Positions 33,599 to 51,349 of a stretch of 64,000 nt of DNA are shown here, piece by piece. The notes beneath the pieces are model-generated. The model saw nothing but the letters and a program-made list of their open reading frames with translations, was not told the DNA's origin and made no database searches. The position numbers were made by a program, and so were the translations under genes. Source of the stretch: Arcobacter sp. CECT 8986 (lineage in GTDB: Bacteria > Campylobacterota > Campylobacteria > Campylobacterales > Arcobacteraceae); the NCBI RefSeq assembly GCF_004116725.1, contig NZ_PDKG01000005.1:1-64000 (forward strand), given 5' to 3'. Position 1 is the first letter of the stretch, and each line of letters begins with the position of its first letter.

Positions 33599-34149
33599 TG
33601 AGAATATTTCTATTTGTACTTTTTTTAACTCCTTTTTTTATAGCTTTATATTCACTATTTATAACTCAAAGTGTAATTGACCCTATCAAATATATCTACA
33701 CTTTTTCTGGAGTTGTTGCAACTGTTATTCTATTTTTTACAATTATAATATCACTTATAAAAAGATATATAAATTTGATGAAATATAGAAGAATGATAGG
33801 ATTATTTGGATTTTTTTATGCTTCTTTACATATTATAAATTTTGTTGTTTTAGATGCACAATTTGATGTTGATTTTATAATTAATAATTTAATAAAAAAG
33901 CCATTTATATATCTTGGTGCAATGGCATTTCTTATTCTTGTATTTTTAGCAGTAACTTCAACAAAAAGACTTTTTAGAAAATATAATAAGTACCATAAAA
34001 CTTTGTATTTATCACTTGTTTTGATTATTATTCATTTTATATTGGCACAAAAATCACTTGATATTTATCAAATATTTTATATATTTATAATTGGTGTTAT
34101 TTCTATTTTTAAACTAATTCAAATAAAAAGTTTATTCAATAGAAATTAG
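33598..34149 (+). CDS. msrQ: MsrQ heme-binding membrane subunit
   Basis: The 183-residue inner-membrane protein has about five to six helices and passes electrons from the quinone pool to MsrP. Histidines in LFGFFYASLHIINF and YHKTLYLSLVLIIIHF are in the positions of the b-heme ligands of the ferric-reductase-like family. It is translationally linked to msrP. Its last 18 bases overlap the convergent response regulator gene. Confidence 0.92.
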   Translation: MRIFLFVLFLTPFFIALYSLFITQSVIDPIKYIYTFSGVVATVILFFTIIISLIKRYINLMKYRRMIGLFGFFYASLHIINFVVLDAQFDVDFIINNLIKKPFIYLGAMAFLILVFLAVTSTKRLFRKYNKYHKTLYLSLVLIIIHFILAQKSLDIYQIFYIFIIGVISIFKLIQIKSLFNRN

Positions 34150-34797: not shown

Positions 34798-35855
34798 AAA
34801 TTACCTTTTATTACATCTTTTATATCTATTTTATAAGAAAAAGATGTTGTATTGTTTTCTGATTTTACACTAATTTCTATATTATTATTATCACAAATAT
34901 CTTTTACAATATTTAATCCCAATCCTAACCCTATATTTTTACTTTTATCTTGATAATATGCTTTAAATATAGAATCTGTATCTTGAATATATGAACCACT
35001 ATTTTTTATTATTATAAAGTGTTCATCTTTATTTATATCTAAAATTATATCTATTTGGCTATTTATCTCTGCATATTTTATAGCATTTGAAATAGTATTA
35101 TCAATAACTCTTTGAAGTGAGTTTTCATCAATAAAAATATTGAATTCAGTATGAATATCTAAGTTTATATCTATATTTTTTATATTTGCCATTTCATCAA
35201 AAAACATAACTCTTGAAGATAGAAATTTTATAAGTTCAATCTCTTTTTTCTCTTCAACTTTTTTTTCTTTTTTTATTAAATAGTATAAATCATTATATAT
35301 TGAAGATAGAGATTTTGAAGATGCTTTTATAGCTTCAAACTGCTCTTTTGGACCAATTTGAGTCTCTAAGTTATCAATATTTAAAGAGATAATACTTAAA
35401 GGTGTATTCATCTCATGGATAATTTTTTTTAGAAAAAAATCTTGTTGTTTTAGTAAATTTATATTAGTTTGTTTACTTTCAAACAGATTTAGTTGAGTTT
35501 TTATTCTTGCTTTTACTTCCTCTTTTTCAAAAGGCTTAGTTATATAATCAACTCCACCTTCTTCAAATGCTTTAACTTTACTTTGTACATCATCTAAAGC
35601 ACTTATGAAAATAATTGGAATATCTTTTAGTTTTTCATCATCTTTGAATATTCTACAAACTTCAAATCCATTTAAATGAGGAATTTTAATATCTAAAAGT
35701 ATCAAATCTGGTGCACTTAATTTGGCAGATTTTATCGCAAATTGTGCATCTGTTGTTGCTTTTATTAGATAGTTTTCATTTTTTAATATATTATTTAAAT
35801 ATTGTAAGTTTTCAACTTTATCGTCAATTATTAGTATTGTATATTTTTTATCCAT
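34794..35855 (-). CDS. Soluble receiver-histidine kinase
   Basis: The 353-residue protein has an N-terminal receiver domain (Asp55 in LILLDIKIPHLNG, Lys in YITKPFE), a dimerisation/phosphoacceptor segment with His147 in IIHEMNTPLS, and a C-terminal ATPase domain with DNTISNAIKYAE and GLGLGLNIVKD. No membrane segment is seen, so it acts in the cytoplasm. Receiver-first architecture suggests that it is itself phosphorylated, perhaps by the hybrid kinase at 35930, forming a relay to the response regulator at 34132. Confidence 0.92.
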   Translation of the reverse strand: MDKKYTILIIDDKVENLQYLNNILKNENYLIKATTDAQFAIKSAKLSAPDLILLDIKIPHLNGFEVCRIFKDDEKLKDIPIIFISALDDVQSKVKAFEEGGVDYITKPFEKEEVKARIKTQLNLFESKQTNINLLKQQDFFLKKIIHEMNTPLSIISLNIDNLETQIGPKEQFEAIKASSKSLSSIYNDLYYLIKKEKKVEEKKEIELIKFLSSRVMFFDEMANIKNIDINLDIHTEFNIFIDENSLQRVIDNTISNAIKYAEINSQIDIILDINKDEHFIIIKNSGSYIQDTDSIFKAYYQDKSKNIGLGLGLNIVKDICDNNNIEISVKSENNTTSFSYKIDIKDVIKGNL

Positions 35856-35929
35856 CTGTTTTTTCTTTTGATTTTGCTACTTAGATATCATTATAAACAA
35901 AAAGTTATAAAATTATATTGAGGGGTTTG

Positions 35930-38227
35930 ATGAATTTAAAAAGACTTTTTATGCTGCTATTTATTTTAAATACTGGATTATTTATCTTAGTTGTAATGGT
36001 AATAAATAAATACCAAAAATCAACCGATACTCTAGAACAAGCCTATCAAATGCAATATAAATCACTTATTTTAGCCCATGAATTAAGACAAAGTAGTGAT
36101 GATTTGACAAGAATGGCAAGAACTTATGTAATTACTGGAAATCCTTTGTTTAAAAAGCAGTATCAAACTGTACTTGATATTAGAAATGGTGTGAAGCCAA
36201 GACCCAAAAGATACAATGGAATATTTTGGGATTTTCTTACTTTAGATGGAAGTGTTGCAACTTTAGATGGAAAAAAAATACCATTAAGAGAGTTGATGCA
36301 AGAAGCAAACTTTCCAGAAGAGGAGTTAAATCTTTTATTTACTTCTCAAAATGAATCAGATGATTTAACAAACTTAGAACATAAAGCTATGAATGCAATA
36401 ATAGGTGTTTTTCAAGATAAAAATGGAAACTACACTATAAAATCAAAACCAAATTATAAATTAGCAAGAGAGTTGATGTATTCTGATGAATATCATAAAG
36501 CAAAAATAAGAATTATGAAACCACTTGATAAATTTTATAAAATGTTCGAATCAAGAACAAAGCAAAAAGTTGAAGAAGCAAGAATTGTTGTAAAAAAATT
36601 AGAGTTTTATGTAACGGTTATAGTTCTTTTTTCTATTATTGTGTTTTTATTGTCTTTTTTTATTATTCTATTTAGAATTGTACAACCTTTAGAGTTATTA
36701 AGAGTTTCAATGCTTAGATTATCAAAAAATGATATGAATGTGGAACTAGATAAAGAAAAATATCAAGATGAAATTGGAGATATGATTGGTGCTGTTGATG
36801 TATTTAAAGATAATACAAAAAAACTAATAACAAGTGAGCAAAAGATTAAGCTCTCTATGCAAGAAGCAACAAGTGCAAATAAAGCAAAATCTATTTTTTT
36901 AGTAAGAATGAGCCACGAGTTAAGAACACCATTAAATGCAATAATGGGCTTTTCAAATCTACTTAAAAAATCTGAAAATATAAATGAGCAAGAGAGAAAA
37001 AATTTAAGTATTATTAAAAAAAGTGCAAACCATCTACTAAATATCATAAATGAAATACTTGAACTTTCAAAGATTGAAGCAGGAAAAATAGAGATAGTTC
37101 CTAAAAGTTTTAATTTTGAAGAACTTTTAAAAGAGATAGAATCTATCTTTGAATTTAGATGTGAATCAAAAGGTTTAAAATTTAAACTAATAAAATCAGA
37201 AAATATTCCAACATTTATAAAAGTTGATGAATTAAGACTTCGTCAGATTCTAATAAATTTATTAGGAAACTCAATAAAGTTTACAAAAAAAGGTGAAATC
37301 TCTTTATATGTATATGAGCTAAATAAAAAGTTATTTTTTGAAGTAAAAGATACAGGTATTGGTATTTCTAAAGTAAATTTAAAAAAGATTTTCAAACCAT
37401 TTGAACAAGTAAAAAAAGATGATTATAGTCAAAATGGTACAGGTTTGGGCTTATCAATTACTAAAGAGTTAATATCTTTAATGAATGGAACTATATATGT
37501 AAAAAGTATTTTGAATAAAGGAAGTGAGTTTTACTTTAGTATTAGTTATGAAGATTCAAGTCGTGATGAAATAGATATAAAAATTGATAAAAGTAGTATA
37601 AAATCAATTCAAAATCAAAATTTTGAAAAATCAATTTTAGTAGTTGATGATATAAAAGAGAATAGACAATTAGTAACTCAAATATTAAATCAGTATGAGT
37701 TTAAAGTTTTTGAAGCAAGTAGTGGTACTGAAGCTTTAGCTCTTTATGAAAAAAATAGAATTGATTTGATTTTTATGGATATTTTGATGAGTGATATGAA
37801 TGGACTTGATGCCATAAAAAAAATAAGAGAAGAGAAAAATGATAGAAAAATTCCTATTATTACTCTATCTGCAAATGTTTTTTTAGAAGATAGAAGAAAA
37901 GCTTTGAAAGCTGGTGCAAATGACTTTTTACCTAAGCCTTTTGAAGAAGAGAGTATTTTAGCTTTACTTCAAAAATATCTAAATGTAGATGTATGTTTTA
38001 AAGATGAAGTTAAGCAACCTTCTTCAAATATAGAAGATTTACCAGTAGAATTTTATGAAAAATTAAAAGAGTACTCTATTCTTATGAGCAATGAAGAGAT
38101 ATTGAAAATATTGGATACATACTTGCTAAAAGATTCTAGTAAAAAAGTAATAATTGAATTATTAGAAAACTTTGACTATCAGCAGATAATAAATCTATGT
38201 GATAGTAACCTAAATAAAGCTGTATAA
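35930..38227 (+). CDS. Hybrid sensor histidine kinase upstream of urt operon
   Basis: The 765-residue membrane kinase has a first helix at about 5-23, a periplasmic sensor domain of about 200 residues (with LARTYVITG-like RMARTYVITGNP and the RNGVKPRP...YNGIFWDF motif), a second helix at about 224-248, HAMP, HisKA with His329 in RMSHELRTPLNA, HATPase and a receiver with Asp617 in LIFMDILMSDMNG. I take ATG 35930 as start because GAGGGG stands just upstream; TTG 35918 would add four residues. It ends 110 bases before urtA. Divergent to the kinase-regulator pair, it may sense urea or related amides in the periplasm, an inference from location only. Confidence 0.92.
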   Translation: MNLKRLFMLLFILNTGLFILVVMVINKYQKSTDTLEQAYQMQYKSLILAHELRQSSDDLTRMARTYVITGNPLFKKQYQTVLDIRNGVKPRPKRYNGIFWDFLTLDGSVATLDGKKIPLRELMQEANFPEEELNLLFTSQNESDDLTNLEHKAMNAIIGVFQDKNGNYTIKSKPNYKLARELMYSDEYHKAKIRIMKPLDKFYKMFESRTKQKVEEARIVVKKLEFYVTVIVLFSIIVFLLSFFIILFRIVQPLELLRVSMLRLSKNDMNVELDKEKYQDEIGDMIGAVDVFKDNTKKLITSEQKIKLSMQEATSANKAKSIFLVRMSHELRTPLNAIMGFSNLLKKSENINEQERKNLSIIKKSANHLLNIINEILELSKIEAGKIEIVPKSFNFEELLKEIESIFEFRCESKGLKFKLIKSENIPTFIKVDELRLRQILINLLGNSIKFTKKGEISLYVYELNKKLFFEVKDTGIGISKVNLKKIFKPFEQVKKDDYSQNGTGLGLSITKELISLMNGTIYVKSILNKGSEFYFSISYEDSSRDEIDIKIDKSSIKSIQNQNFEKSILVVDDIKENRQLVTQILNQYEFKVFEASSGTEALALYEKNRIDLIFMDILMSDMNGLDAIKKIREEKNDRKIPIITLSANVFLEDRRKALKAGANDFLPKPFEEESILALLQKYLNVDVCFKDEVKQPSSNIEDLPVEFYEKLKEYSILMSNEEILKILDTYLLKDSSKKVIIELLENFDYQQIINLCDSNLNKAV

Positions 38228-38253
38228 ATTTTATACCAAAAACAGTAATCAAA

Positions 38254-38296
38254 CAACACTAAAAGCAACACTTAAACAACACTACTTTTTTATACT
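38254..38296 (+). promoter_or_regulatory. Phased CAACACT repeats and -10 box of the urtA promoter
   Basis: CAACACT occurs three times, at 38254-38260, 38266-38272 and 38277-38283, with start spacings of 12 and 11 bases. A TATACT -10-like box follows at 38291-38296, so the last repeat occupies the -35 region. This arrangement is typical of activation by a response regulator that contacts RNA polymerase. The urtA start codon is 42 bases downstream of the -10 box. Confidence 0.55.
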
Positions 38297-38337
38297 TTCA
38301 ATATAAGTTTAAAAGACTTAAATTGAAAGGAGATTTA

Positions 38338-39615
38338 ATGAAAATGAGATTTGCTAAAGCAGTAGTTGCTTCTACATTATTAGCTGGTATGCTTGCACAT
38401 GCTGCTGATACAATTAAGGTTGGTGTTTTACACTCACTATCAGGAACAATGGCTATTTCTGAAACAACATTAAAAGATACGGTATTAATGTTAATCAAAA
38501 AGCAGAATGAAGAAGGTGGATTATTAGGTAAAAAACTAGAACCTGTTGTAGTTGACCCAGCTTCAAACTGGCCACTATTTGCTGAAAAAATGAGAAGTTT
38601 ACTTACTAAAGATAAAGTTGATGTAACATTTGGTTGTTGGACATCTGTTTCTAGAAAATCTGTTCTTCCTGTTGTTGAAGAGTTAAATGGTATTTTATTT
38701 TATCCTGTTCAATATGAAGGTGAAGAATCATCTAAAAATATTTTCTATACTGGTGCTGCGCCAAACCAACAAGCAATTCCAGCAGTTGATTATTTAATGA
38801 ATGAAGTTAAAGTTAAAAGATGGGTATTAGCAGGAACTGATTATGTTTATCCAAGAACAACAAATAAGATTTTAAAAGCATATTTAAAATCTAAAGGTGT
38901 AAAAGATAAAGATATTATGGTTAATTATACTCCATTTGGATATTCAGACTGGCAAAGTATTGTAAGTGATATCAAAAAATTTGGTAGTACTGGATTAAAA
39001 ACTGCTGTTGTTTCTACTATTAATGGTGATGCAAATGTACCATTTTATAAAGAGTTAGCAAATCAAGGTATTAAAGCTGAAGATATTCCTGTTGTTGCAT
39101 TCTCTGTTGGAGAAGAAGAACTTTCAGGTATCGATACTAAACCATTAGTTGGACACTTAGCTGCGTGGAATTACTTCCAAAGTGTTGAAACAAAACAAAA
39201 TGATGAGTTTATTAAATCTTGGCACAAATTCAAAAAAGATAATAAAAAAGTTACAAATGACCCAATGGAAGCTACTTATATTGGATTTAACTTATGGGTA
39301 AAAGCTGTTAAAAAAGCTGGAACTACTGATGTTGATAAAGTAAGAAAAGCAATGATTGGATTATCAGTTCCTAACTTAACTGGTGGAACAGCAACAATGC
39401 TTAAAAATCACCATATTACAAAACCAGTATTAATTGGAGAAATTCAAGATAATGGTCAATTTGAAACTGTATGGGAAACAGAAAAAGAAGTACCAGGTGA
39501 TGCTTGGTCAAACTATTTACCAGATAGTAAAAATTTAATTTCTGATTGGACAGATCCTGTTAATTGTGGAAATTATAATACAGTTACTAAAAAATGTTTA
39601 GGAAATAGTAAATAA
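38338..39615 (+). CDS. urtA: Urea ABC transporter binding protein UrtA
   Basis: This periplasmic binding protein captures urea. A signal peptide covers about residues 1-23 (ending MLAHAA-D). The family motifs IKVGVLHSLSGTMAISE, FGCWTSVSRKSVLPVVEE and LFYPVQYEGEE are clear and separate it from branched-chain amino acid binding proteins. The start is ATG 38338 behind AAAGGAG; the upstream TTG at 38323 is inside the ribosome binding region. It is the first gene of an eleven-gene run of urea uptake and urease genes. Confidence 0.95.
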   Translation: MKMRFAKAVVASTLLAGMLAHAADTIKVGVLHSLSGTMAISETTLKDTVLMLIKKQNEEGGLLGKKLEPVVVDPASNWPLFAEKMRSLLTKDKVDVTFGCWTSVSRKSVLPVVEELNGILFYPVQYEGEESSKNIFYTGAAPNQQAIPAVDYLMNEVKVKRWVLAGTDYVYPRTTNKILKAYLKSKGVKDKDIMVNYTPFGYSDWQSIVSDIKKFGSTGLKTAVVSTINGDANVPFYKELANQGIKAEDIPVVAFSVGEEELSGIDTKPLVGHLAAWNYFQSVETKQNDEFIKSWHKFKKDNKKVTNDPMEATYIGFNLWVKAVKKAGTTDVDKVRKAMIGLSVPNLTGGTATMLKNHHITKPVLIGEIQDNGQFETVWETEKEVPGDAWSNYLPDSKNLISDWTDPVNCGNYNTVTKKCLGNSK

Positions 39616-39655
39616 TAATATGAGAGTTCTTCTCTCATATTAAAAAAGGATTGGT

Positions 39656-41254
39656 ATGAAGTTTTTAAAAATAATATTGCTTAATTTATTACTTTTAACT
39701 TTTTGTTTTGGTTCTAGTTTTGAAGAAGATTCTTCTAAACTTATGACTAGAAGCTTTAATAAAAAACAAGTGGTTTTAGATGAGTTATTAAATAAATATA
39801 AAGATGATGCAAGATTTGAAACACTTTTAAAATATATGTTAAAAGGTGACTTGTATTATACAAAAGAGGATAAAAGACTTGTAGTTTTATTAAAAAAAGT
39901 AGAATATTCATATTTTACACAAGATTTACTAACAGGTAAAAACTTAGAAAAAAAAGAGAAATATGACTTTAAAAAGATAAAAATAAATAATAAATTAAGA
40001 AGTGTTATAAAAGCTGCACTTGCACAAATAAATCTTTTTTCAACAAATAAAGATAAAAGATATAGTGCTGCAAAAAATATATTATCAAACTTAGAAAAAG
40101 AAGATGAGGTATTAATAAATAAAGCTTTACAAATAGAAAAAGTTGTAAGTGTAAAAGAACTTTTACTAGAAAGTAAAATAAATCTAATAGCTTTATATTC
40201 AACTAATTTAGAGCAAAGAGTAGAAGCTGTTAAAAAACTTGGTTCATATATGTCTTCAAGAACTTTTGAAACATTAAAAAATATAGAAAACTCTTTAGAT
40301 GAGAAGATATTAAAAGATGAAGCAAAAAAAGCATTAGGAACTATAAAACATAAAAAAAGTTTTTATGGAGTAATTCAAGAGCTATTTTTTGGTCTTAGTT
40401 TAGGTTCTGTTTTATTATTAGCAGCAATTGGTTTAGCTATTACTTTTGGAGTAATGAAAGTTATTAATATGGCCCATGGAGAATTGATTATGATTGGAGC
40501 ATATACAACATATACAATTCAACAATTAATGCCAAATTTAATAGAGTATTCTGTAATTATTGCAATTCCTGTGGCTTTCGTAGTAAGTGGATTAGTTGGG
40601 GTTTTAATTGAAAGATTAGTTATAAGACATCTTTATGGAAGACCTTTGGAGACACTTCTTGCAACATTTGGAATTAGTTTAATATTACAACAATTAGTAA
40701 GAAGTATTTACTCACCTTTAAATCAAGAAGTGAAAACACCTTCTTGGATGAGTGGAGCGTTAGAGATAAATAGTTCACTATTTTTAACATACAATAGATT
40801 GTATATTATTATTTTTGCATTGATTGTATTTTTTGGTGTTTTATTTGTAATGAAAAAAACATCTTTAGGATTAAAAGTTAGAGCAGTTTCTCAAAATAGA
40901 ACAATAGCAAGAGCAATGGGAATAAAATCAAGTTATATTGATGCCTTAACTTTTGGTATAGGTTCAGGAATTGCAGGAATTGCTGGTGTTGCTTTATCTC
41001 AACTTACAAATGTTGGACCAAATTTAGGACAAGCTTATATTGTTGATAGTTTTATGGTTGTTGTATTTGGTGGAGTTGGTAATTTATGGGGAACATTAAT
41101 AGCAGCATTTTCACTTGGTGAAATAAATAAATTTATGGAACCAGTTGCAGGAGCTGTTTTAGCAAAAGTAATTATTTTAGTATTTATAATCTTATTTATA
41201 CAAAAAAGACCTAGAGGATTATTTCCTCAAAAAGGTCGAGATGCAGAGGATTAG
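39656..41254 (+). CDS. urtB: Urea ABC transporter permease UrtB
   Basis: The 532-residue protein has a signal-like N-terminus, a hydrophilic helical periplasmic domain (about 20-230) and a LivH-type membrane domain with about eight helices from residue 240. Motifs include GLAITFGVMKVINMAHGELIMIGAY and the ATPase-docking RAVSQNRTIARAMGI. The long N-terminal domain is a normal feature of UrtB. It lies 40 bases after urtA with AAGGA before the start. Confidence 0.95.
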   Translation: MKFLKIILLNLLLLTFCFGSSFEEDSSKLMTRSFNKKQVVLDELLNKYKDDARFETLLKYMLKGDLYYTKEDKRLVVLLKKVEYSYFTQDLLTGKNLEKKEKYDFKKIKINNKLRSVIKAALAQINLFSTNKDKRYSAAKNILSNLEKEDEVLINKALQIEKVVSVKELLLESKINLIALYSTNLEQRVEAVKKLGSYMSSRTFETLKNIENSLDEKILKDEAKKALGTIKHKKSFYGVIQELFFGLSLGSVLLLAAIGLAITFGVMKVINMAHGELIMIGAYTTYTIQQLMPNLIEYSVIIAIPVAFVVSGLVGVLIERLVIRHLYGRPLETLLATFGISLILQQLVRSIYSPLNQEVKTPSWMSGALEINSSLFLTYNRLYIIIFALIVFFGVLFVMKKTSLGLKVRAVSQNRTIARAMGIKSSYIDALTFGIGSGIAGIAGVALSQLTNVGPNLGQAYIVDSFMVVVFGGVGNLWGTLIAAFSLGEINKFMEPVAGAVLAKVIILVFIILFIQKRPRGLFPQKGRDAED

Positions 41255-41257
41255 AAA

Positions 41258-42364
41258 ATGAAAAGAGAACCAATATTATTAAATATATTAAAAAATGACA
41301 AGGGTGGAAAAATAGTTTTATCTACTCTTGGAGTTGTTGTTTTTGTTGTAGCATTTTGTAATCTTTTCATGCCACATGACTCAATTTTTTATATCTCAAC
41401 ATTTACTGTTACTATTTTAGGTAAATATCTTGCATTTGCACTTTTAGCACTTGCTCTTGATTTAGTTTGGGGATATTTAGGAGTTTTAAGTTTAGGTCAC
41501 GGTGCATTTTTTGCCCTTGGTGGATATGCATGGGCTATGTATTTGATGAGACAAATAGGTGATAGAGGAGTTTATGGAAATCCTGATTTACCAGATTTTA
41601 TGGTATTTATGAATCTAAAAGAATTACCATGGTTTTGGCAAGGATTTGATAATCCTATATTCGCTTTTTTAATGGTGATGCTAGTTCCTGCAATTTTAGC
41701 TTTTGTTTTTGGTTATTTAGCTTTTAAATCAAGAGTAACAGGAGTTTATCTTTCTATCATAACTCAAGCTTTAACTTATGCTTTAATGCTTGCATTTTTT
41801 AGAAACGATATGGGATTTGGTGGAAACAATGGACTTACAGATTTTAAAGATATCTTAGGATTTGATTTATCATTGGATTCTACAAGAGTAGGGTTATTAA
41901 TAATTACATTTATTGCTTTAGTTATTGGATATCTTATTTGTAGATTTATTATGAACTCAAAACTTGGAAGAGTAATTATATCTATTAGAGATGCAGAAAG
42001 TAGAGTAAGATTTATAGGGTATAAAGTAGAACAATATAAACTATTTATCTTTATTGTTTCAGCTATTTTAGCAGCAATTGCAGGAGCATTATATGTTCCA
42101 CAAGTAGGAATTATCAATCCTAGTGTTTTCTCTCCATTATTTTCAATTGAGTTAGTAATTTGGGTTGCAGTTGGTGGTAGAGGAACTTTATATGGAGCAA
42201 TTATTGGAGCAATTGTTGTAAGTTTTGCAAGTACATACTTTACTTCAGCACTTCCAGAAGTTTGGTTATATGCTCTTGGTGGATTATTTGTTGTTTCTAC
42301 ATTATATCTTCCAAAAGGAATAGTTGGAGTTTTTGAAAAACTGAAAGTTAAAAAGGAAGCTTAA
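41258..42364 (+). CDS. urtC: Urea ABC transporter permease UrtC
   Basis: A 368-residue LivM-type permease with about nine to ten membrane helices. Conserved motifs are LDLVWGYLGVLSLGHGAFFALGGYA, FGGNNGLTDFKDILGF and SIRDAESRVRFIGY (the ATPase-docking loop). The RQIGDRGVYGNPDLPDFM insertion with FLGW-type aromatic residues is typical for UrtC. It begins three bases after urtB and is followed one base later by urtD. Confidence 0.95.
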   Translation: MKREPILLNILKNDKGGKIVLSTLGVVVFVVAFCNLFMPHDSIFYISTFTVTILGKYLAFALLALALDLVWGYLGVLSLGHGAFFALGGYAWAMYLMRQIGDRGVYGNPDLPDFMVFMNLKELPWFWQGFDNPIFAFLMVMLVPAILAFVFGYLAFKSRVTGVYLSIITQALTYALMLAFFRNDMGFGGNNGLTDFKDILGFDLSLDSTRVGLLIITFIALVIGYLICRFIMNSKLGRVIISIRDAESRVRFIGYKVEQYKLFIFIVSAILAAIAGALYVPQVGIINPSVFSPLFSIELVIWVAVGGRGTLYGAIIGAIVVSFASTYFTSALPEVWLYALGGLFVVSTLYLPKGIVGVFEKLKVKKEA

Positions 42365-42365
42365 T

Positions 42366-43154
42366 ATGAAACTATTAAAACATGAAATAAAACAAGACTT
42401 TGGAAATATAAAAAAAGGAGATAGAATCCTTTTAGTTGATGGTGTAAGTGTTAGTTTTGATGGTTTTAAAGCTTTGAATAATCTAAGTTTTTCTATTGAT
42501 TATGGAGAACTTAGATGTATTATTGGAGCAAATGGAGCTGGAAAATCTACGATGATGGATGTTGTAACTGGAAAAACTAAACCAGATGTTGGTCAAGTTA
42601 TTTTTGGAGAAGCTATTGATTTATTATCAATGGATGAGCCAACAATTGCAGATGTAGGAATAGGAAGAAAGTTTCAAAAACCAACAGTTTTTCAAAACAA
42701 TACAGTATTTGAAAATTTAGAGCTTGCAATGAAAGATGATAAGAGATTTTTCAAAACTCTTTTTTCTAAATTAAATAGTGAACAAAAAGATAAAATAGAA
42801 CACACAATGAATTTAATAGGTTTAAAAGAACTTTATAATAAAGAAGCTGGAATTTTATCACATGGTCAAAAGCAATGGCTAGAAATAGGAATGCTAATAA
42901 TGCAAGAACCAAAGCTTCTATTAGTTGATGAGCCAGTTGCTGGTATGACTCCTCAAGAAGTTGAAAATACTGCACAAATTTTAACTGATTTATCAAAAGA
43001 AAATGCAGTTGTAGTAGTTGAACATGATATGGAATTTATCAGAAGTATTGCAAAAAAAGTTACTGTTTTACACGAAGGTTCAGTTCTTGCAGAAGGTACA
43101 ATGGATGCAATACAAAACAATGAAAAAGTGCGAAAAGTATATTTAGGTGAGTAA
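42366..43154 (+). CDS. urtD: Urea ABC transporter ATPase UrtD
   Basis: The 262-residue ATPase is LivG-like, with Walker A GANGAGKST, the UrtD-type GIGRKFQKPTVF, signature LSHGQKQWLEIGML (as in UrtD, not LSGG) and Walker B LLLVDEPVAGMT. It energises urea uptake with UrtE. A 134-base gap with three hairpins separates it from urtE. Confidence 0.95.
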   Translation: MKLLKHEIKQDFGNIKKGDRILLVDGVSVSFDGFKALNNLSFSIDYGELRCIIGANGAGKSTMMDVVTGKTKPDVGQVIFGEAIDLLSMDEPTIADVGIGRKFQKPTVFQNNTVFENLELAMKDDKRFFKTLFSKLNSEQKDKIEHTMNLIGLKELYNKEAGILSHGQKQWLEIGMLIMQEPKLLLVDEPVAGMTPQEVENTAQILTDLSKENAVVVVEHDMEFIRSIAKKVTVLHEGSVLAEGTMDAIQNNEKVRKVYLGE

Positions 43155-43183
43155 AACTCAAATATAAAGACAAACTTATTTGC

Positions 43184-43269
43184 CCCTTTAGGGTTTTGTT
43201 CACTTTTAACAATTTTTTATAAATTGTGCTAAAAGTGTTATAGAGGAAAGGTCCCTATTAAATTGGGAC
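43184..43269 (+). promoter_or_regulatory. Three-hairpin element between urtD and urtE
   Basis: Three inverted repeats follow each other: CCCT/AGGG at 43184-43193 with a following TTTT; CACTTTTA (43201-43208) with TAAAAGTG (43230-43237), extended inside by ACAATTT/AAATTGT (43209-43215/43221-43227); and GTCCC (43251-43255) with GGGAC (43265-43269). The last ends 19 bases before the urtE start codon. It may be a partial terminator, an RNase processing site or a regulatory RNA that sets different levels for urtABCD and urtE-ure. I recognise no known riboswitch class. Confidence 0.6.
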
Positions 43270-43288
43270 AATTTAAGAGGAATAAATT

Positions 43289-43984
43289 ATGTTAAAAATT
43301 GAAAAAGTAAATCAATATTATGGACAAAGTCATACTCTTTGGGATTTAGATTTAGAGATTAAAAAGGGGAGATGTACTTGTATTATGGGAAGAAATGGAG
43401 TTGGTAAAACTACATTAAGTAAAGTTATTATGGGACTTCTTCCAATAAAAGATGGTCAACTTTTATATAATGGAAAAGATATTTCTAAATTAAGTGATTA
43501 TAAAAGAGCAGGTATTGCTATTGGGTATGTTCCTCAAGGAAGAGAGATTTTTTCTCAACTTACAGTTAGAGAAAATTTAGAAGTTGGTGTTTTATCAAAT
43601 AGAAATAAAATAACAAAAATCCCTGAAAAAATATATGATTTATTTCCTGTTTTAAAAGAGATGGAAAAAAGAAAAGGTGGGGATTTAAGTGGAGGTCAAC
43701 AACAACAATTAGCAATTGCAAGAGCACTTTGTATTGACCCAGAGTTTTTAATACTTGATGAACCAAGTGAAGGGATTCAGCCAAATATTGTCGCACAAAT
43801 TGGGGAAGTAATTGATTATTTGACAAAAGAGGAAAATATTACTGTTATGTTAGTTGAACAAAAACTTCCTTTTGCAAGAAAACATGGAGATGATTTTTAT
43901 GTTATTGACAGAGGAAGTGTTGTAGCAAATGGAGAAATAAACCAGTTGAGTGATGATATAATTAAACAACATCTATCAGTTTAG
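43289..43984 (+). CDS. urtE: Urea ABC transporter ATPase UrtE
   Basis: The 231-residue LivF-like ATPase has Walker A GRNGVGKTT, the UrtE/LivF motif GYVPQGREIFSQLTVRENLEVG, signature LSGGQQQQLAIARAL and Walker B FLILDEPSEGIQP. It is the second ATPase of the urea importer and ends seven bases before ureD, linking transporter and urease genes in one transcript. Confidence 0.95.
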   Translation: MLKIEKVNQYYGQSHTLWDLDLEIKKGRCTCIMGRNGVGKTTLSKVIMGLLPIKDGQLLYNGKDISKLSDYKRAGIAIGYVPQGREIFSQLTVRENLEVGVLSNRNKITKIPEKIYDLFPVLKEMEKRKGGDLSGGQQQQLAIARALCIDPEFLILDEPSEGIQPNIVAQIGEVIDYLTKEENITVMLVEQKLPFARKHGDDFYVIDRGSVVANGEINQLSDDIIKQHLSV

Positions 43985-43991
43985 GAGAATT

Positions 43992-44741
43992 ATGAGTATT
44001 AAATTTCATTTTAAAGATGATAAGTTTAATTTAGACAAACAGCGTTTACCTTCAAGACATTACTATTTCAATGAAGATGAAAATTATATAAAATTATTAA
44101 ATATAGGTGAGGGAATTTTTCCAAAAGATAGAATAAAAACATCTTTTAGACTTGATAACTCATCTTTAGTTTTAACTACTGAGTCTGCAACTAAAATTTA
44201 CTCTTCAAAAAAAGAGTATGGAATAAATAGCTTAAATATAAAATTAGAAAATTCAAATTTAGAGTTTATAAATGATGAATTGATTCTATATAAAGATTCA
44301 AAATATATTCAAACATTTAGATTAGTTTTTGATGAAAAATCTACATTTTTTTATACAGATATCTTAAGTAGAGGAAGAAGCTTTGAAGATTTTGATTTCA
44401 CTTCTATGCTTATAAAAAATTCATTTTATGAAAATAAGAAATTAGAATATATAGAAAAATTTGATATTTCAGGTGATGAATTAAAAGATTATATTTTTAG
44501 AAAAAGTACAAAAAATCATCTATTTGCTAAAATTTATATAAAAACTAACCATAATGATTACTTTTTAGACACATTACATCTAGAAGAATTTGAAAGTTTT
44601 TCTTATAGTAATGATAAGAAAATAATTATAGGTTCGATTAGTAGTGATTCAATGTCAGAACTAAAAAAGAAAATTAATTATATTTGGGAACTTTATAGAA
44701 AACAATTAAATAAAAAAAGATTTATTTTAGGAAAACAGTAA
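43992..44741 (+). CDS. ureD: Urease accessory protein UreD (UreH)
   Basis: UreD is the scaffold that binds apo-urease and, with UreF and UreG, delivers nickel. The 249-residue protein has the family's [16 protein letters not shown] and TTESATKIY at about residues 37-70 and the later [17 protein letters not shown]. It is a divergent member, but the position immediately before ureAB supports the call. AGGAG stands five bases before the ATG. Confidence 0.9.
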
Positions 44742-44761
44742 AAAAAAGGGAGGCTATTTTA

Positions 44762-45439
44762 ATGTTTTTGACAAATCGTGAGCAAGAGAAACTACTTATT
44801 TATACAGCGTCAAAGTTAGCACTAGAAAGAAAGCAAAGAGGATTAAAACTTAATTATCCAGAAGCCGTATCAATAATTAGTTCTTTCATTTTAGAGGGTG
44901 CAAGAGATGGAAATAGTGTTGCAGACTTGATGGTAAATGCAACAAAAGTTCTAAGTGAAGATGATGTTTTACCAGGTGTTGCTTCAATGATGCAAATGGT
45001 ACAAGTTGAAGCTACATTTGAAGATGGAACTAAGCTTGTAACAGTACATAATCCAATATCTTTTAATAAAAATGAACTTGTTCCAGGTGAGTATTTTATT
45101 GATGAGGGTGAAATTTCTTTAAATGAAAATAGCAAGGTTATTACTATTGAAGTAGAGAATAGAGGTGATAGACCAGTTCAAATAGGTTCACATTATCACT
45201 TCTTTGAAGTAAATAAAGAGCTATTTTTTAATAGAGAAGAAGCTTATGGAAGAAGATTAGATATTCCTGCTGGAACTTCTGTTAGATTTGAACCTGGTTC
45301 TAAAAAAAGTATAAATTTAATAGATTTTAGTGGAAAAAGATATGTAAGTGGATTTAATGGTTTAGTTGAGGGCTTATTAGATGATAAAGAAGTGAAAACT
45401 AAAGCAATGCAAAATTTAAAAGAATTTTTAGGAGAGTAA
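44762..45439 (+). CDS. ureAB: Urease gamma-beta fusion subunit
   Basis: The 225-residue protein joins the gamma subunit (about 1-100, [18 protein letters not shown] and [21 protein letters not shown]) to the beta subunit (about 103-225, [35 protein letters not shown] and [12 protein letters not shown]). This fusion is the Helicobacter/Arcobacter type. It forms the urease holoenzyme with UreC. The start follows GGGAGG and the stop is one base before the ureC start. Confidence 0.97.
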
Positions 45440-45440
45440 G

Positions 45441-47141
45441 ATGAAAATATCAAAAGAAAAATATGCGTCAATGTATGGACCAACAACTAATGATAGATTT
45501 AGACTTGCTGATACTTCTTTAATCGCTAAAATAGAAAAAGATTATACAACTTATGGAGAAGAGAGTAAATTTGGTGGTGGTAAAACAATAAGAGATGGAA
45601 TGGCTCAAAGTCCAACAGCTACAAAAGTTGCTGATTTAATTATTACAAATGCTGTTATTATAGATTATACAGGTATTTATAAAGCAGATATTGGAATAAA
45701 AGATGGTCTTATAAGTGCTATTGGAAAATCTGGAAATCCAAATTTATGTGATGGAATAACTGACGGTTTAGAAATTGGGGCAAATACTGAAATTTTATCA
45801 GCTGAAGGAAAAATTATAACAGCTGGTGGAATTGATTCACATATTCACTTTATAAGTCCAGGACAAATAGATGAAGCACTAGCAAGTGGAGTTACAACAA
45901 TGGTTGGAGGAGGAACTGGTCCAAATACAGGAACAAATGCTACAACTTGTACTCCAGGAAAATGGAATATCTCAAAAATGATTCAAAGTGTTGATAATCT
46001 TCCTTTAAATTTTGGTTTTATGGGAAAAGGAAATAGCTCAAGTTATAAAGCACTGAAAATGCAAGTTGAAGCTGGAGCAATGGGATTGAAACTTCATGAA
46101 GATTGGGGAAGTACTCCAAATGCAATTGATACTTGTTTGAAAGTTGCAGATGATTTTGATATTCAAGTTGCTATTCATACAGATACTTTAAATGAGTCAG
46201 GATTTGTTGATAGTACAGTATGTAGCTTTAAAAATAGAACAATCCATACATTCCATAGTGAAGGTGCTGGAGGTGGACATGCACCTGATATTATGAAAGT
46301 AGCAGGATTAGCAAATATTTTACCATCAAGTACAAATCCAACTTTACCATATACAAAAAATACAATTGAAGAACACCTTGATATGCTTATGGTTTGTCAC
46401 CATTTAAGTCCTAAAATTCCAGAAGATGTAAGTTTTGCAGAATCAAGAATAAGAGGAAAAACTATTGCAGCTGAAGATGTATTACATGATATTGGAGCAA
46501 TTTCAATAACAAGCAGTGATTCTCAAGCAATGGGAAGAGTAGGGGAAGTTATTATTAGAACTTGGCAAGTTGCTGATTCTATGAAAAGACAAAGAGGTGC
46601 TTTAAAAGGTGATGATAACTTAAGTGATAATGAAAGAATCAAAAGATTTGTGGCAAAATATACTATAAATCCTGCAATTGCTTGTGGAATTGATGATTAT
46701 GTAGGAAGTGTTGAAGTTGGTAAGATGGCAGATTTAGTTTTATGGAATAGAGCATTTTTTGGAGTAAAACCAGAAATTGTTGTAAAAGGTGGATTTATCG
46801 CTCTTGCTATGATGGGAGATAGTAATGCTTCAATTCCAACACCAGAACCTAATATGTATAGACCAATGTTTGGAAGTTTAGGAAAAGCAAGTGCAAAAAC
46901 AAGTGCTATTTTTACATCTAAAGTTGCAAGTCATGATTTAAAAGAGAAATTAGAAATAGGCAAAAAAGTATTAGCAGTTAAAAATACTAGAAATATTGGT
47001 AAAAAAGATATGAAATTAAATGATTTCATTGGAGATATAAAAGTAGATTCAGAAACATATGATGTTACAGTAAATGGAGAATTGATTGAATCAAACTATG
47101 TTGAAACTGTACCAATGGCAAAAAAATACTTTTTATTCTAG
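45441..47141 (+). CDS. ureC: Urease alpha subunit (catalytic)
   Basis: UreC hydrolyses urea to ammonia and carbamate at a dinuclear nickel site. The 566-residue protein has the metal-binding [14 protein letters not shown], the carbamylated lysine K217 in [15 protein letters not shown], the nickel ligands in [10 protein letters not shown] and [16 protein letters not shown], the flap [22 protein letters not shown] and [12 protein letters not shown]. All catalytic residues that I can check are present, so it should be active. It is equivalent to UreB of Helicobacter. Confidence 0.98.
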
Positions 47142-47147
47142 GAATAT

Positions 47148-47588
47148 TTGATGATAAGAAAGATTACAGATATAAAAAAAGATTTAGATAGTTTTGATGA
47201 TGAAGTAGAATTATCTTGGTTTGATATGCAAAAGCCAAATCTAAGTGCAATTACTAAAAAAGGTGCAGAGTTTATAGTGAAAGTAAAATTTACTCATTTG
47301 CATGAAAATGATTTTTTAGTAGATGAAAATGATTATAAAATAAAAGTAAGTAGATGCGAAGATGAAATTTATATTTTAAAATTTGATGATGCTTTAACTT
47401 TTGCAAAAACAGCATATGAGATTGGAAATAGACATCAGCCTATTATGATAAGTGATTTTCAAATTACTGTTTTGGAAGATATTTCAATTTTAGATATTAT
47501 CAAACAGTGCCAATCAAATGAGAAGATTGAGGTAAACAAAACAAAAGGCTATTTTAAACCAAATGGAAAAGCACATCACTCACACTAA
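47148..47588 (+). CDS. ureE: Urease nickel chaperone UreE
   Basis: The 146-residue protein has a peptide-binding N-terminal half and a metal-binding C-terminal half with the family's YEIGNRHQPIMI motif near residue 93, containing the conserved dimer-interface histidine. It ends KAHHSH, a short histidine tail instead of a long one. The 3' end overlaps ureF by 26 bases. Confidence 0.92.
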   Translation: MMIRKITDIKKDLDSFDDEVELSWFDMQKPNLSAITKKGAEFIVKVKFTHLHENDFLVDENDYKIKVSRCEDEIYILKFDDALTFAKTAYEIGNRHQPIMISDFQITVLEDISILDIIKQCQSNEKIEVNKTKGYFKPNGKAHHSH

Positions 47589-48267
47589 TTTAAATCTAAA
47601 AAGTCTTAGTAGATTTTTACAAATACTTGATGGAAGTTTTCCATCGGGTGTTTTTGTCCACTCTTTTGGACTTGAACCACATATTTTAAAAAATGAAGTA
47701 TTTGATATAAATAGTTTAAAATCATATTTACAAAACTTAATTATTGACCAATATTTTAAACAAGAGTTCGTTTATATAAAAAAAGTATATAAGGCTTTGG
47801 AAGATAAAAAAATAAATCTTATTGTTAAAATAAATAAAGAGTATAGTGCATTTTTAACATATGAATATGCAAAAGCTTCAAAGGATATTGGTGAAAATTA
47901 TTTCAAACAAATAAAACATTTACCAGTAAAAGATGAGGTAAAAGAGTATTTTAAAAAAATAGAAGATAAAACAATTTTGGCAAATGAGATTATTGTATTG
48001 AGTTGCTTTGCTTATGATATGAATATTAGTTATGAAGATTTTATTGTTATGTGGACAAAAAAGAATTTGATTAATATTTCAGCAGCAACACTTAAAATCT
48101 CTAGAATAAAACCAACTCAAATACAACAAATGCTTTTTGAAATTGATGATATTTTAGAGAGTATGCCATTTGAAAATATAAAAGATAAAATAACAAACTT
48201 TAATCCTTTATTTGAAGAAGTTATTTTTTCACATAAAAATTTAGAACCTAAAATGTTTACTACATAA
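47563..48267 (+). CDS. ureF: Urease accessory protein UreF
   Basis: The all-helical 234-residue protein shows the UreF N-terminal signature LQILDGSFPSGVFVHSFGLE and a conserved C-terminal region. UreF acts with UreD and UreG in nickel insertion. The start codon lies inside the end of ureE. AAACCAAATGG gives only a weak ribosome binding site, so translational coupling is likely. Confidence 0.9.
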   Translation: MEKHITHTNLNLKSLSRFLQILDGSFPSGVFVHSFGLEPHILKNEVFDINSLKSYLQNLIIDQYFKQEFVYIKKVYKALEDKKINLIVKINKEYSAFLTYEYAKASKDIGENYFKQIKHLPVKDEVKEYFKKIEDKTILANEIIVLSCFAYDMNISYEDFIVMWTKKNLINISAATLKISRIKPTQIQQMLFEIDDILESMPFENIKDKITNFNPLFEEVIFSHKNLEPKMFTT

Positions 48268-48284
48268 GAAAAAGGAAATAATAA

Positions 48285-48872
48285 ATGAGTTTAAAAATTG
48301 GAATAGCAGGACCAGTTGGAAGTGGTAAAACTTCATTAATAGAATCAATGACAAATTTATTAAAAGATAAATATTCATTAGCAATTGTGACAAATGATAT
48401 TTATACAACAGAAGATGCAAACTATTTGAAAAAGACATTAGATTTAGATGAAGATAGAATAATTGGAGTTGAAACAGGTGGTTGTCCTCATACTGCTATT
48501 AGAGATGATATTTCTATGAATCAAAAAGCAGTTGAAGAGCTTGAAGAAAAGTTTAATCCTGATATTATATTTGTTGAAAGTGGTGGAGATAATCTTAGTG
48601 CTACATTTTCTTATGAGTTAATTGATTATTATATGTATATAATTGATACGGCACAAGGTGCAGATATTCCTAGAAAAAAAGGTGCAGGTTTACTTTTTTC
48701 AGATTTATTAGTAATAAATAAAACAGATTTAGCCCCTTATGTTGGCGTAAATTTAGATGAAATGAAAAATGACGTAGCAAATAATAGAAAAAATAAACCT
48801 TCTGTTTTTATATCAAATAAAGATGAAAATAGTTTGCAAAAAGTTATTAATTGGGTAGAAGCTATATTGTAG
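48285..48872 (+). CDS. ureG: Urease accessory GTPase UreG
   Basis: The 195-residue SIMIBI-class GTPase powers nickel delivery. The P-loop is [15 protein letters not shown] (about 6-20), the metal-binding Cys-Pro-His motif is in [15 protein letters not shown], and the guanine-binding NKTD occurs in [29 protein letters not shown] precedes the ATG; its AAGGAAA is the complement of the TTTCCTT segment shared by the two small RNAs downstream. It is the last gene of the urease operon. Confidence 0.96.
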
Positions 48873-48926
48873 TTAACTATTCATTAACTTTTTGTTGAAA
48901 TTTAGTTAATCGTTAACTGTTATAAT
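48873..48926 (+). promoter_or_regulatory. Promoter and TTAAC operator array of small RNA copy 1
   Basis: TTAACTATTCATTAAC at 48873-48888 and GTTAATCGTTAAC (a GTTAA-3-TTAAC dyad, 48905-48917) precede a perfect -10 box TATAAT (48921-48926). The same layout recurs, ungapped, 193 bases downstream at copy 2. The proximal dyad abuts the -10 region, the usual place for a repressor or a class II activator. The regulator is not identified. Confidence 0.7.
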
Positions 48927-48932
48927 TTTCTT

Positions 48933-49050
48933 ATGAATAAGCAAGAAGCGGACTTACTTATTTATGCTTAAAATACATAGCGAATTTTTTCCTATGAAAA
49001 TTTTATGTTTCCTTGTGTGTAAAAGCCTCCTAATGGGAGGTTTTTTTTTG
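48933..49050 (+). ncRNA. Small RNA, tandem copy 1
   Basis: A predicted transcript of about 115 bases. Hairpin 1 pairs AATAAG-C-AAG (48936-48945) with CTT-A-CTTATT (48953-48962) around loop AAGCGGA. Hairpin 2 pairs CATAG (48976-48980) with CTATG (48992-48996), extended by AAAAT/ATTTT. A single-stranded segment TTTTATGTTTCCTTGTG follows (from 49001), then the terminator. The whole unit is repeated as copy 2 with hairpin 2 changed in sequence but preserved in structure. A 12-codon ATG frame exists, but its frame is not kept in copy 2. Function unknown; the CU-rich segment could pair with Shine-Dalgarno sequences. Confidence 0.8.
49023..49050 (+). terminator. Intrinsic terminator of small RNA copy 1
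   Basis: CCTCC (49026-49030) pairs with GGAGG (49036-49040) around TAATG and is followed by nine T residues. It also ends any transcript that reads through from ureG. Confidence 0.9.
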
Positions 49051-49065
49051 CCTAAAATTTTGTTA

Positions 49066-49119
49066 TTAACTAATCATTAATATTTTGTTGAAGTTTAGTT
49101 AATTGTTAACTGTTATACT
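49066..49119 (+). promoter_or_regulatory. Promoter and TTAAC operator array of small RNA copy 2
   Basis: TTAACTAATCATTAA (49066-49080) and GTTAATTGTTAAC (49098-49110) precede a -10 box TATACT (49114-49119). Alignment with the copy 1 promoter has no gap, with eight differences in about 75 bases. The -10 box is one base weaker than in copy 1, so copy 2 may be less expressed or more dependent on an activator. Confidence 0.7.
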
Positions 49120-49125
49120 TTTACT

Positions 49126-49240
49126 ATGAATAAGCAAGAATACGGACTTACTTATTTTTAGTAAAATTCTAATTTTACTATAACAATTTTTTTATGTTTC
49201 CTTGTGTGTAAAAAGCCTCCTTTTGGAGGCTTTTTTTTTG
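49126..49240 (+). ncRNA. Small RNA, tandem copy 2
   Basis: Predicted transcript of about 115 bases. Hairpin 1 pairs AATAAG-C-AAG (49129-49138) with CTT-A-CTTATT (49147-49156) around loop AATACGGA, which keeps the GGA and adds one base compared with copy 1. Hairpin 2 is TAGTAAAAT (49159-49167) with ATTTTACTA (49172-49180), nine base pairs of entirely different sequence. The segment TTTTATGTTTCCTTGTG (from 49190) is identical to copy 1, then comes the terminator. The pattern of conserved seed and structure with replaced helix sequence indicates a functional RNA. Confidence 0.8.
49212..49239 (+). terminator. Intrinsic terminator of small RNA copy 2
   Basis: AAAGCCTCC (49212-49220) pairs with GGAGGCTTT (49225-49233) around TTTT, followed by a run of T residues. 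The stem is longer than in copy 1. Confidence 0.92.
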
Positions 49241-49309: not shown

Positions 49310-51349
49310 ATGCCATTATCAAATCTTAACAAAGAACAATTAGAAGCTGCAACTTGTACACCAGGTTATAATTTAATTATTGCAAGTGCTGGTACTGGAA
49401 AAACTTCTACAATTGTAGGAAGAATTGCAAACTTAATTAACAATGGAATAAAACCTGAAGAGATTTTATTATTAACTTTTACAAATAAAGCAGCAGCTGA
49501 AATGGTACAAAGAATTGCTAAGTATTTTGGAAAAGATATAGCTCAAAGTATTATGGCAGGAACTTTTCACTCTGTATCATATAAATTGTTAAAAAAGTTA
49601 GAGATAAATATTACACTAAAACAACCAAATGAGTTAAAAACACTATTTAAATCACTATATGAAAAAAGAGTATTTTATAATAGAGATGATGAAGCAAATC
49701 CATATGATGGTGGATATTTGTATGATATGTACTCTTTATTTTTAAACTCAAATGATGGTGAGGAATTTGGACAGTGGATAATATCAAAAAATGCAGCACA
49801 TGAAATTTATACACCAATATATGAAGATGTTGTTTTAGAATTTGATGATTTAAAAAGAAAATATGGATATGTAAATTTTGATGATTTACTTATTTTAATG
49901 TTAAATACTTTAAAAGAGAAAGATTTTGACTTTAAAGAGATATTAGTTGATGAATATCAAGATACAAACCCTCTACAAGGAAGATTACTTGATGCTTTTA
50001 AACCAAAATCACTTTTTTGTGTAGGAGATTACGACCAAAGTATATATGCTTTTAATGGTTCAGATATTGGAATTATTTCTACATTTTCAAGACGGTATAA
50101 AGGTGCAAATGTATATACATTGAGAAAAAATTATCGCTCTTCAAAACCAATATTAGATTTAGCTACAAAAGTAATAGAATATAATGAAAGAATTTATGAA
50201 AAAAATCTAGAAGTAATGAGAACAGATGTTGATATAAAACCAAAACTTTTAGCTTTTAATGAGCTGTTTGGTCAATATGAATATATCTCAAAGCTTATAT
50301 CTCAAAGTAGTACACCACACAATGAAGTAGCAATTATATTTAGAAATAACTCAAGTGCAGATGGAATAGAAGTAAACTTAAGAGAGTTTGGAATTCCTGC
50401 TAGAAGAAAAGGTGGAATGTCTTTTTTCGATGCAGTTGAAGTAAAATTTATTTTAGATATTTTGATGATGCACTTATCTCACAATGATATGATGGCATTT
50501 ATTCATGTGATTGAATATGGTAAGGGAATTGGAAAAGCAATAGCTAAAGATATATTTGATGCCTTAATCAAATTAGGTCATGGAAAATTGTTTGAAGGTC
50601 TATTTAATCCAGATGATAAAATAAAAAATCCATATGAATCAAATAAAGTAAAAAATATTCAATTAGGATTATTTGATGATTTTATTGAATTAGGAAGTCT
50701 TGCAAAATTTAAAGATTGTGGTTTTGAAGAGAAGTTTTTATCAAATCCAATTTTAAAGCATCCAAAACTTAGTGTTGAGGGTGCAAACTATTTATATGAT
50801 TTTTATAAATTAATTAGAGATTTAAGAAGAATAAAAAATCCATCAACAAAAATAGAAAATATTGTAAAAAGTCCTTTATTTGAGAGAATTAAAGAGATTG
50901 TTTCAACAAAAAGAGCTACACAAAAAGATGGTACAGTTAATTTAGAGTTGAAAAATAATGCAATTTCAAAAATAAATAGAAAAACAGTTTTATTAAAAAG
51001 ATTATCTACTCATTATAGTGATTTATCAAAATTTATTAATTCTATGGTTTTAGGTGGAAGTGAGATGAGTGAAGGAGATGGTGTAAATTTACTATCTGTT
51101 CATGCAAGTAAAGGTCTAGAATTTAAAGAAGTATATGTAATTGATTTGATGGATGGAAGATTCCCAAATAGAAAACTTATGAGTAAAGGTGGAAGCTTAG
51201 AAGAAGAAAGAAGACTTTTTTATGTTGCTGTAACAAGAGCAAAAGATATTTTATATCTTAGCTTTGCTAAATATGACAGAATTAAAAAATTAGATTTTAT
51301 TCATTCACCATTTTTAAAAGAAGCAGGACTAATAAGAAAAGAAGAGTAG
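49310..51349 (+). CDS. UvrD/Rep/PcrA-type DNA helicase
   Basis: This 679-residue superfamily 1A helicase unwinds DNA 3' to 5' in repair or replication restart. Motif I is ASAGTGKTSTIVGRI (about 25-39), motif Ia LLTFTNKAAAEM, motif II DEYQDTNPLQ, motif III GDYDQSIYAFNGSD, motif IV NYRSSKPIL, motif V VHASKGLEFKEVYVIDL and motif VI EERRLFYVAVTRAKD. The length fits Rep/PcrA. It starts 70 bases after the second small RNA terminator; no nearby partner genes suggest a special role. Confidence 0.95.
   Translation: MPLSNLNKEQLEAATCTPGYNLIIASAGTGKTSTIVGRIANLINNGIKPEEILLLTFTNKAAAEMVQRIAKYFGKDIAQSIMAGTFHSVSYKLLKKLEINITLKQPNELKTLFKSLYEKRVFYNRDDEANPYDGGYLYDMYSLFLNSNDGEEFGQWIISKNAAHEIYTPIYEDVVLEFDDLKRKYGYVNFDDLLILMLNTLKEKDFDFKEILVDEYQDTNPLQGRLLDAFKPKSLFCVGDYDQSIYAFNGSDIGIISTFSRRYKGANVYTLRKNYRSSKPILDLATKVIEYNERIYEKNLEVMRTDVDIKPKLLAFNELFGQYEYISKLISQSSTPHNEVAIIFRNNSSADGIEVNLREFGIPARRKGGMSFFDAVEVKFILDILMMHLSHNDMMAFIHVIEYGKGIGKAIAKDIFDALIKLGHGKLFEGLFNPDDKIKNPYESNKVKNIQLGLFDDFIELGSLAKFKDCGFEEKFLSNPILKHPKLSVEGANYLYDFYKLIRDLRRIKNPSTKIENIVKSPLFERIKEIVSTKRATQKDGTVNLELKNNAISKINRKTVLLKRLSTHYSDLSKFINSMVLGGSEMSEGDGVNLLSVHASKGLEFKEVYVIDLMDGRFPNRKLMSKGGSLEEERRLFYVAVTRAKDILYLSFAKYDRIKKLDFIHSPFLKEAGLIRKEE

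Follow-up and report, generated by a model that had tools for sequence, protein, structure and literature searches.

Tandem genes of a putative small RNA family of the Arcobacteraceae and their predicted action on outer-membrane receptors

In a Malaciobacter-type genome of the family Arcobacteraceae (Arcobacter sp. CECT 8986), the gene ureG ends at position 48872, and two similar units of DNA follow one another before the gene of a UvrD-like helicase (49310-51349). What these units encode and what their products act on is the question raised by this locus. Positions refer to the window, i.e., the stretch of 64,000 nucleotides that opens contig NZ_PDKG01000005.1. An earlier note on this DNA took the units for sibling regulatory RNAs and pointed to ureG as a possible target. 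The analysis favors another target class: with a probability of roughly 0.75, the two units encode trans-acting sibling small RNAs (sRNAs) that are controlled by an OmpR-type response regulator and repress TonB receptors and porins.

The tandem units and their family

Both units are built alike: an operator and a −10 box come first, then two hairpins, a linker of 24 bases and, at the end, an intrinsic terminator (Table 1). The repeat is as the earlier note described it, with exactly 8 differences in the 75 aligned bases of the promoter and 5′ part. The linker TTTTATGTTTCCTTGTGTGTAAAA is identical in both copies and has no further occurrence in the window. A linker-anchored pattern gave two matches in the window against none expected; the terminator scan detected one strong terminator per unit (2 found, 0.1 expected). 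Both full transcripts fold better than 200 of 200 shuffles, with z of −3.3 for copy a and −4.8 for copy b. Hairpin 2 does have unrelated sequence in the two copies and folds significantly in both, as does hairpin 1. In the full-length minimum free energy fold of copy b, the 5′ arm of hairpin 1 pairs with the linker and displaces this hairpin, which does form when its segment is folded alone. A small open reading frame was considered and rejected. Copy a has a frame that opens with ATG (MNKQEADLLIYA), but an indel shifts it in copy b; the ATG is absent in the Aliarcobacter-type members and is followed by a stop after two codons in others, so the predicted transcript is judged non-coding.

Table 1. 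Features of the two tandem units (window coordinates)
Feature	Position	Strand	Description	Basis
Operator, copy a	48873..48910	+	four TTAAY-like half-sites with 11-bp spacing (48873, 48884, 48895, 48906), OmpR-family style	alignment of 79 promoters
−10 box TATAAT, copy a	48921..48926	+	10 bp downstream of the last half-site; start predicted near 48932	family-wide fixed spacing
Putative sRNA gene a	48933..49051	+	about 117 nt	covariance model, 127 bits (model included copy a); beats all fold shuffles
Hairpin 1, copy a	48936..48962	+	AATAAGCAAG / CTTACTTATT	fold; homologous hairpin covaries in Aliarcobacter-type members
Hairpin 2, copy a	48976..48996	+	CATAG / CTATG	fold; weak family-wide support
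Linker/seed, copy a	49001..49024	+	5′-UUUUAUGUUUCCUUGUGUGUAAAA; complementary to TonB-receptor/porin Shine-Dalgarno	core AUGUUUCCUUGUGU nearly invariant in 69 members
Terminator, copy a	49021..49045	+	intrinsic	terminator scan
Operator, copy b	49066..49103	+	same four half-sites	promoter alignment and operator matrix
−10 box TATACT, copy b	49114..49119	+		promoter alignment
Putative sRNA gene b	49126..49240	+	115 nt	covariance model, 116 bits (model included copy b); fold z −4.8
Hairpin 1, copy b	49129..49156	+	linker pairing competes in the full-length fold	segment folded alone
Hairpin 2, copy b	49159..49180	+	TAGTAAAAT / ATTTTACTA	fold tests
Linker/seed, copy b	49190..49213	+	same as the copy a linker	sequence comparison
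Terminator, copy b	49210..49235	+	intrinsic	terminator scan

The search for relatives by covariance model, which the earlier note had proposed, was productive. DNA search found the family in all 6 Malaciobacter genomes with one or two copies each. The first model, built from nine copies, was positive in 60 of the 104 Arcobacteraceae genomes (1-4 copies each, tandem in several), and the second one added members within the Arcobacteraceae, giving a total of about 65 of 104. No member was found by the second model in about 350 genomes of other Campylobacterales, where weak members could have escaped the stricter filters used. When 84,980 species genomes were scanned for the exact pattern, the matches fell mostly in the Arcobacteraceae, with scattered ones in other phyla. 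Rfam contained no relevant family at the gathering threshold for the window or at E up to 1 for 11 related loci, and in the library searched, no paper on a trans-acting sRNA in Arcobacter or Arcobacteraceae was found. Weak model matches in one genus (g18; L126, L127, L140, L141) had neither promoter nor seed and were discarded, as was a second match in this genome (C4:130252), which is an AT-rich chance match. Judged by sequence, the tandem pair belongs to a previously unnamed Arcobacteraceae sRNA family and is not a local duplication.

The single-stranded (A)UGUUUCCUUGUGU is nearly invariant across the 69 aligned members; hairpin 2 and the terminator vary freely. In 35 Aliarcobacter-type members, 7 of the 10 pairs of hairpin 1 have changed on both sides and 98% of cells pair. 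None of 500 shuffles reached these values, and the slid controls were far lower. Tested by folding, hairpin 1 also outperformed 95% of its shuffles in 94% of the 78 members. Compensatory changes, whose absence from close relatives the earlier note named as a refutation, are present in hairpin 1 of the Aliarcobacter-type members; the sequence divergence of hairpin 2 is real, but this hairpin had no such changes in the tested clade. The GGA of the hairpin-1 loop, said to be kept, is present in both copies, but other genera carry GCGAA or GACGCAGCGAC, and GCGAA replaces GGA in both hairpin regions of one large member group. The accessibility of the seed is moderate, with a mean unpaired probability of 0.61. 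The family of about 65 genomes, the covariation and the invariant linker together back the view of sibling regulatory RNAs with an anti-Shine-Dalgarno linker. One locus (L139, G074:C1:2372488) has kept the operator and hairpin architecture and lacks the UUUCCUUGUGU seed, as if it had been exchanged.

Complementarity of the seed to start sites of outer-membrane proteins

Start sites were picked by a simple Shine-Dalgarno rule that is independent of the seed. Outside the RNAs, CACAAGGAAA occurs at nine places in this genome (G000); three of them are Shine-Dalgarno sites, among them that of a TonB-dependent receptor gene and that of a porin gene (PF13609), which has a 15-nt perfect complement to the seed, located 7 nt before its ATG. 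The porin stood first when 419 genes from 464 kb of this genome (a 400-kb sample was chosen to include receptor regions) were ranked by pairing. Seven of the eight best-pairing genes among the 419 encode outer-membrane proteins, namely the porin and six of the nine TonB receptors. The real seed was superior to 200 of 200 flank-shuffled decoys keeping UUUCCUU and to 200 of 200 full shuffles; the best-scoring decoy seed had rebuilt AUGUUUCCUUGUGUUU by chance. By mean rank among the 419 genes, the receptors did not surpass the best result of the 30 restricted decoys, and such statistics are weaker than those for the top of the list because three receptors have no site. Reading the UUUCCUU of the linker as anti-Shine-Dalgarno is supported for the receptors and the porin, but not for ureG, which was the suggested target and which reached −13.8 kcal/mol, just outside the best 21 of 419.

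In three Malaciobacter genomes, the mean pairing energy was −14.0 kcal/mol for 30 TonB-receptor genes vs. −8.7 kcal/mol for 100 background genes (p = 2e-7). Pairing of −14 kcal/mol or stronger was found in 20 of these 30 receptors and in 3 of the 100 background genes (p = 2e-7), and the specificity for receptors over core-preserving decoys had p = 2e-6. For the TonB receptors of other genera, carriers of the RNA averaged −11.9 kcal/mol and non-carriers −8.6 kcal/mol (p = 4e-5); −14 kcal/mol was reached by 10 of 32 receptors in the former and by none of 36 in the latter. Combined, strong pairing occurs in 30 of 62 receptor genes of carriers and in 0 of 36 of non-carriers (p = 3e-8), a comparison in which the two groups are also split by phylogeny and the orthologous receptors of related genomes are not independent. 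Target prediction with the linker as seed, another proposal of the earlier note, thus yields strong lineage-specific matches, and these are TonB-dependent receptors and a porin.

Counts of 11-mer seed matches ahead of an ATG did not clearly set carriers above non-carriers; the two differ only in which kind of gene is matched. Matched start sites in the other carriers belong to TonB receptors, OmpA-like, DUF3373 and porin-like proteins, MlaA and NosZ, and repeatedly to the cytosolic prs and a 173-aa Tpx-like gene. Those in non-carriers belong to aroQ, rpsB, metK, ilvC, psd and similar genes (genes without a Pfam match were named from reading the sequences). A permuted 11-mer, ACCAAAGGAAA, was tried as a control and had only 8 matches in 47 genomes. 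This control says little because non-carriers also have the real 11-mer. The gene prs, which we take from its sequence to encode PRPP synthetase, has a seed match at the Shine-Dalgarno site in two genera (L239, L242, L246, L249, L299), and it may be a conserved cytosolic target.

Operator and further putative small RNAs

In most of the 79 promoters, four TTAAY-like half-sites are spaced by exactly 11 bp, the last one lying 10 bp upstream of TATAAT. The small-genome Aliarcobacter-type members have lost the two upstream half-sites and keep only the two proximal ones. Tandem half-sites spaced by 11 bp are the binding mode of tandem OmpR-family dimers. The operator matrix applied to 464 kb of this genome found only copies a and b and one further putative sRNA locus; each genome has few exact operator matches, and these turn up repeatedly at sRNA genes.

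The same operator appears to drive at least one, and probably two, further putative sRNAs in this genome. One of them, the further locus found with the matrix (L427:9302-9480; G000:C3:119302), has the four half-sites, a hairpin with a GCGAA loop and the seed UCAUUGUUCUUCCUAAA; it lies upstream of an MscS-type mechanosensitive channel gene and is conserved in the genus (G001-G004). The other candidate (G000:C2:247628, minus strand; L423), which came from searching the whole genome with the exact pattern, has a more divergent operator with TTAAT repeats, followed by a hairpin, a CU-rich UCUCUCCUUGUUAAA and a terminator. It lies upstream of the gene for a 115-aa protein without a Pfam match, and like arrangements are seen in G005, G065 and G071 (L158, L190, L191). 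In other genera, RNAs with the operator and GCGAA hairpins carry different seeds; at L189 (G060:C2), two operator-driven putative sRNAs of this kind with different seeds form a tandem pair.

Neighborhood, alternative explanations and proposed mode of action

At 44 of the 53 loci, the helicase gene follows the RNAs on the same strand within about 10-100 nt; at 18, MsrQ-like proteins are encoded upstream. The order nnrS-msrP-msrQ (names from sequence reading) is found at L041, and the same trio occupies 31353-34149 of this window. Between msrPQ and the RNAs, positions 34132-48872 hold genes of an OmpR-type regulator, kinases, a urea ABC transporter and urease. This block is probably an insertion, msrPQ and the RNAs being adjacent in other genera. 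Since it separates the trio from the RNAs, the link to urease looks recent and incidental. Within the window, two Rfam matches were noted besides. The 5_ureB_sRNA (RF02514) match at 45592-45879 (−), above cut-off and antisense inside ureB, may represent a genuine antisense RNA like that of Helicobacter or simply reflect similarity of the coding sequence; the n00280 (RF03531) match at 51177-51273 (+), inside the helicase gene, is probably coding similarity, as in the helicase genes of relatives.

The frequent position before the helicase gene and the AAGGAAA of the ureG Shine-Dalgarno would suit RNAs acting in cis on the urease operon or the helicase as a leader, attenuator or local antisense. 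Each unit, however, starts from a promoter and stops at a strong terminator of its own. Some copies are located away from the helicase: four Malaciobacter genomes have one beside an SDR gene, and G070, G071 and G065 have ectopic ones. Since the RNA precedes another gene in the four Malaciobacter genomes, it is not a helicase leader. No more than 3 of the 53 loci have urease next to the RNAs, and many genes pair better than ureG, which leaves the urease target proposed by the earlier note without backing and makes control in cis quite improbable. Titration of a protein such as CsrA through GGA loops is most improbable: GGA is found in the hairpin-1 loop of both copies and in the terminator stem-loop, but multiple conserved loop GGA motifs are not present across members, the loop changing between genera while the linker is invariant, and the receptor Shine-Dalgarno matches confined to carriers would be left unexplained.

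The linker resembles an anti-Shine-Dalgarno, and its conservation is of the strength that a protein site could show. It might thus bind an RNA chaperone or a ribosome component, the receptor matches being a by-product of a lineage-specific Shine-Dalgarno style. This is improbable, as background genes in these genomes do not have the ACACAAGGA style in common, the enrichment disappears with decoys that keep the UUUCCUU core, and the sister RNAs driven by this operator carry other CU-rich linkers. Periodic AT tracts are frequent in Campylobacterota promoters, and the operator might accordingly be a curved AT-rich element or the site of a regulator outside the OmpR family. Such an explanation is unlikely, though of some weight; the exact spacing and fixed distance to the −10 box fit tandem OmpR-type binding, and sites are few per genome.

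Trans-acting sibling sRNAs under an OmpR-type regulator are therefore the preferred reading. Because many genes of receptors for iron and nutrient uptake have ribosome-binding sites that match the invariant sequence, the RNAs probably shut these receptors off when a sensor system turns on the two RNA genes. The sequences show the family and its conservation, the covariation of hairpin 1, the architecture of the operator and the enriched seed complementarity at TonB-receptor start sites, seen only in carriers. Transcription of the pair, the response regulator, its inducing signal and the repressive sign are all predicted here. The phosphorylated OmpR-type regulator would bind the four TTAAY repeats, which overlap the −35 region, and turn both genes on. 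In the folded RNA of about 115 nt, a hairpin would protect the 5′ side, a second, variable hairpin and the terminator would form as well, and the invariant AUGUUUCCUUGUGUGU would stay exposed. The seed would then form 10-15 nt of pairing with the Shine-Dalgarno region ACACAAGGAR in mRNAs of TonB-dependent receptors, the porin and some other envelope proteins; this would block ribosome binding and lower the levels of the targeted outer-membrane proteins. The duplication would serve dosage; hairpin 2, being variable, may adjust stability or the choice of additional targets.

The seed of enterobacterial OmrA/OmrB is their 5′ end, whereas that of the Arcobacteraceae RNAs is 3′, just before the terminator. 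OmrA/OmrB are OmpR-controlled tandem siblings with shared ends and a divergent middle, which act through base pairing to repress TonB receptors (CirA, FecA, FepA) as well as other outer-membrane proteins (PMC4211561). The pair studied here shares the tandem arrangement with conserved ends and a divergent middle and the (predicted) pairing with mRNAs of TonB receptors and other outer-membrane proteins. OmpR-like 11-bp repeats are present at the promoters of a and b. It has no sequence relationship to OmrA/OmrB (no match to the Rfam OmrA-B model), its family was found only in the Arcobacteraceae, and its regulator and repression are predicted. LhrC RNAs pair with ribosome-binding sites of their targets via CU-rich motifs. 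In Listeria monocytogenes, LhrC1-5 are multicopy siblings turned on by LisR under envelope stress (PMC4132741, PMC5880928). The Arcobacteraceae family has 1-4 copies per genome, with a response regulator predicted; LhrC differs in its Gram-positive host, in several CU-rich loops instead of one long invariant seed, in other targets such as the adhesin LapB and in sequence (no match to the Rfam LhrC model). RepG of Helicobacter pylori, from the same phylum, also base-pairs with mRNA leaders, its target being a G-repeat in the tlpB leader (PMC8295292); it shares neither operator nor target class. Repression by OmrA/OmrB depends on Hfq. Campylobacter jejuni has no Hfq (PMC3847290). A GC-IGR survey of Arcobacter sp. 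L lists, without naming them, rare intergenic candidates that occur in Arcobacter only (PMC6429828); some could overlap the present family, and its main text gives no structure, function, operator or target for them. The best-supported reading is that the family would work like OmrA/OmrB (PMC4211561) and LhrC (PMC4132741) and is by sequence a member of neither.

A wider proposal is tentative, with the odds slightly against it. One OmpR-type regulator, its operator lying almost only at sRNA genes (the pair, the MscS-adjacent RNA and the divergent third one), might control an Arcobacteraceae sRNA regulon with a common 5′-hairpin architecture and a different anti-Shine-Dalgarno seed for each class of envelope genes. 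The ribosome-binding sites of TonB receptors would have co-evolved with the invariant seed into a one-RNA receptor switch with an origin separate from OmrA/OmrB.

The analysis of the tandem pair yields a precise, cheaply testable seed and target list. If the reading is true, the Arcobacteraceae, including food-borne Aliarcobacter, would have a family-wide post-transcriptional switch for outer-membrane receptors. The enterobacterial circuit from OmpR through sRNA to TonB receptor would then have a separate second origin, and one sRNA could shape the ribosome-binding sites of a whole gene class.
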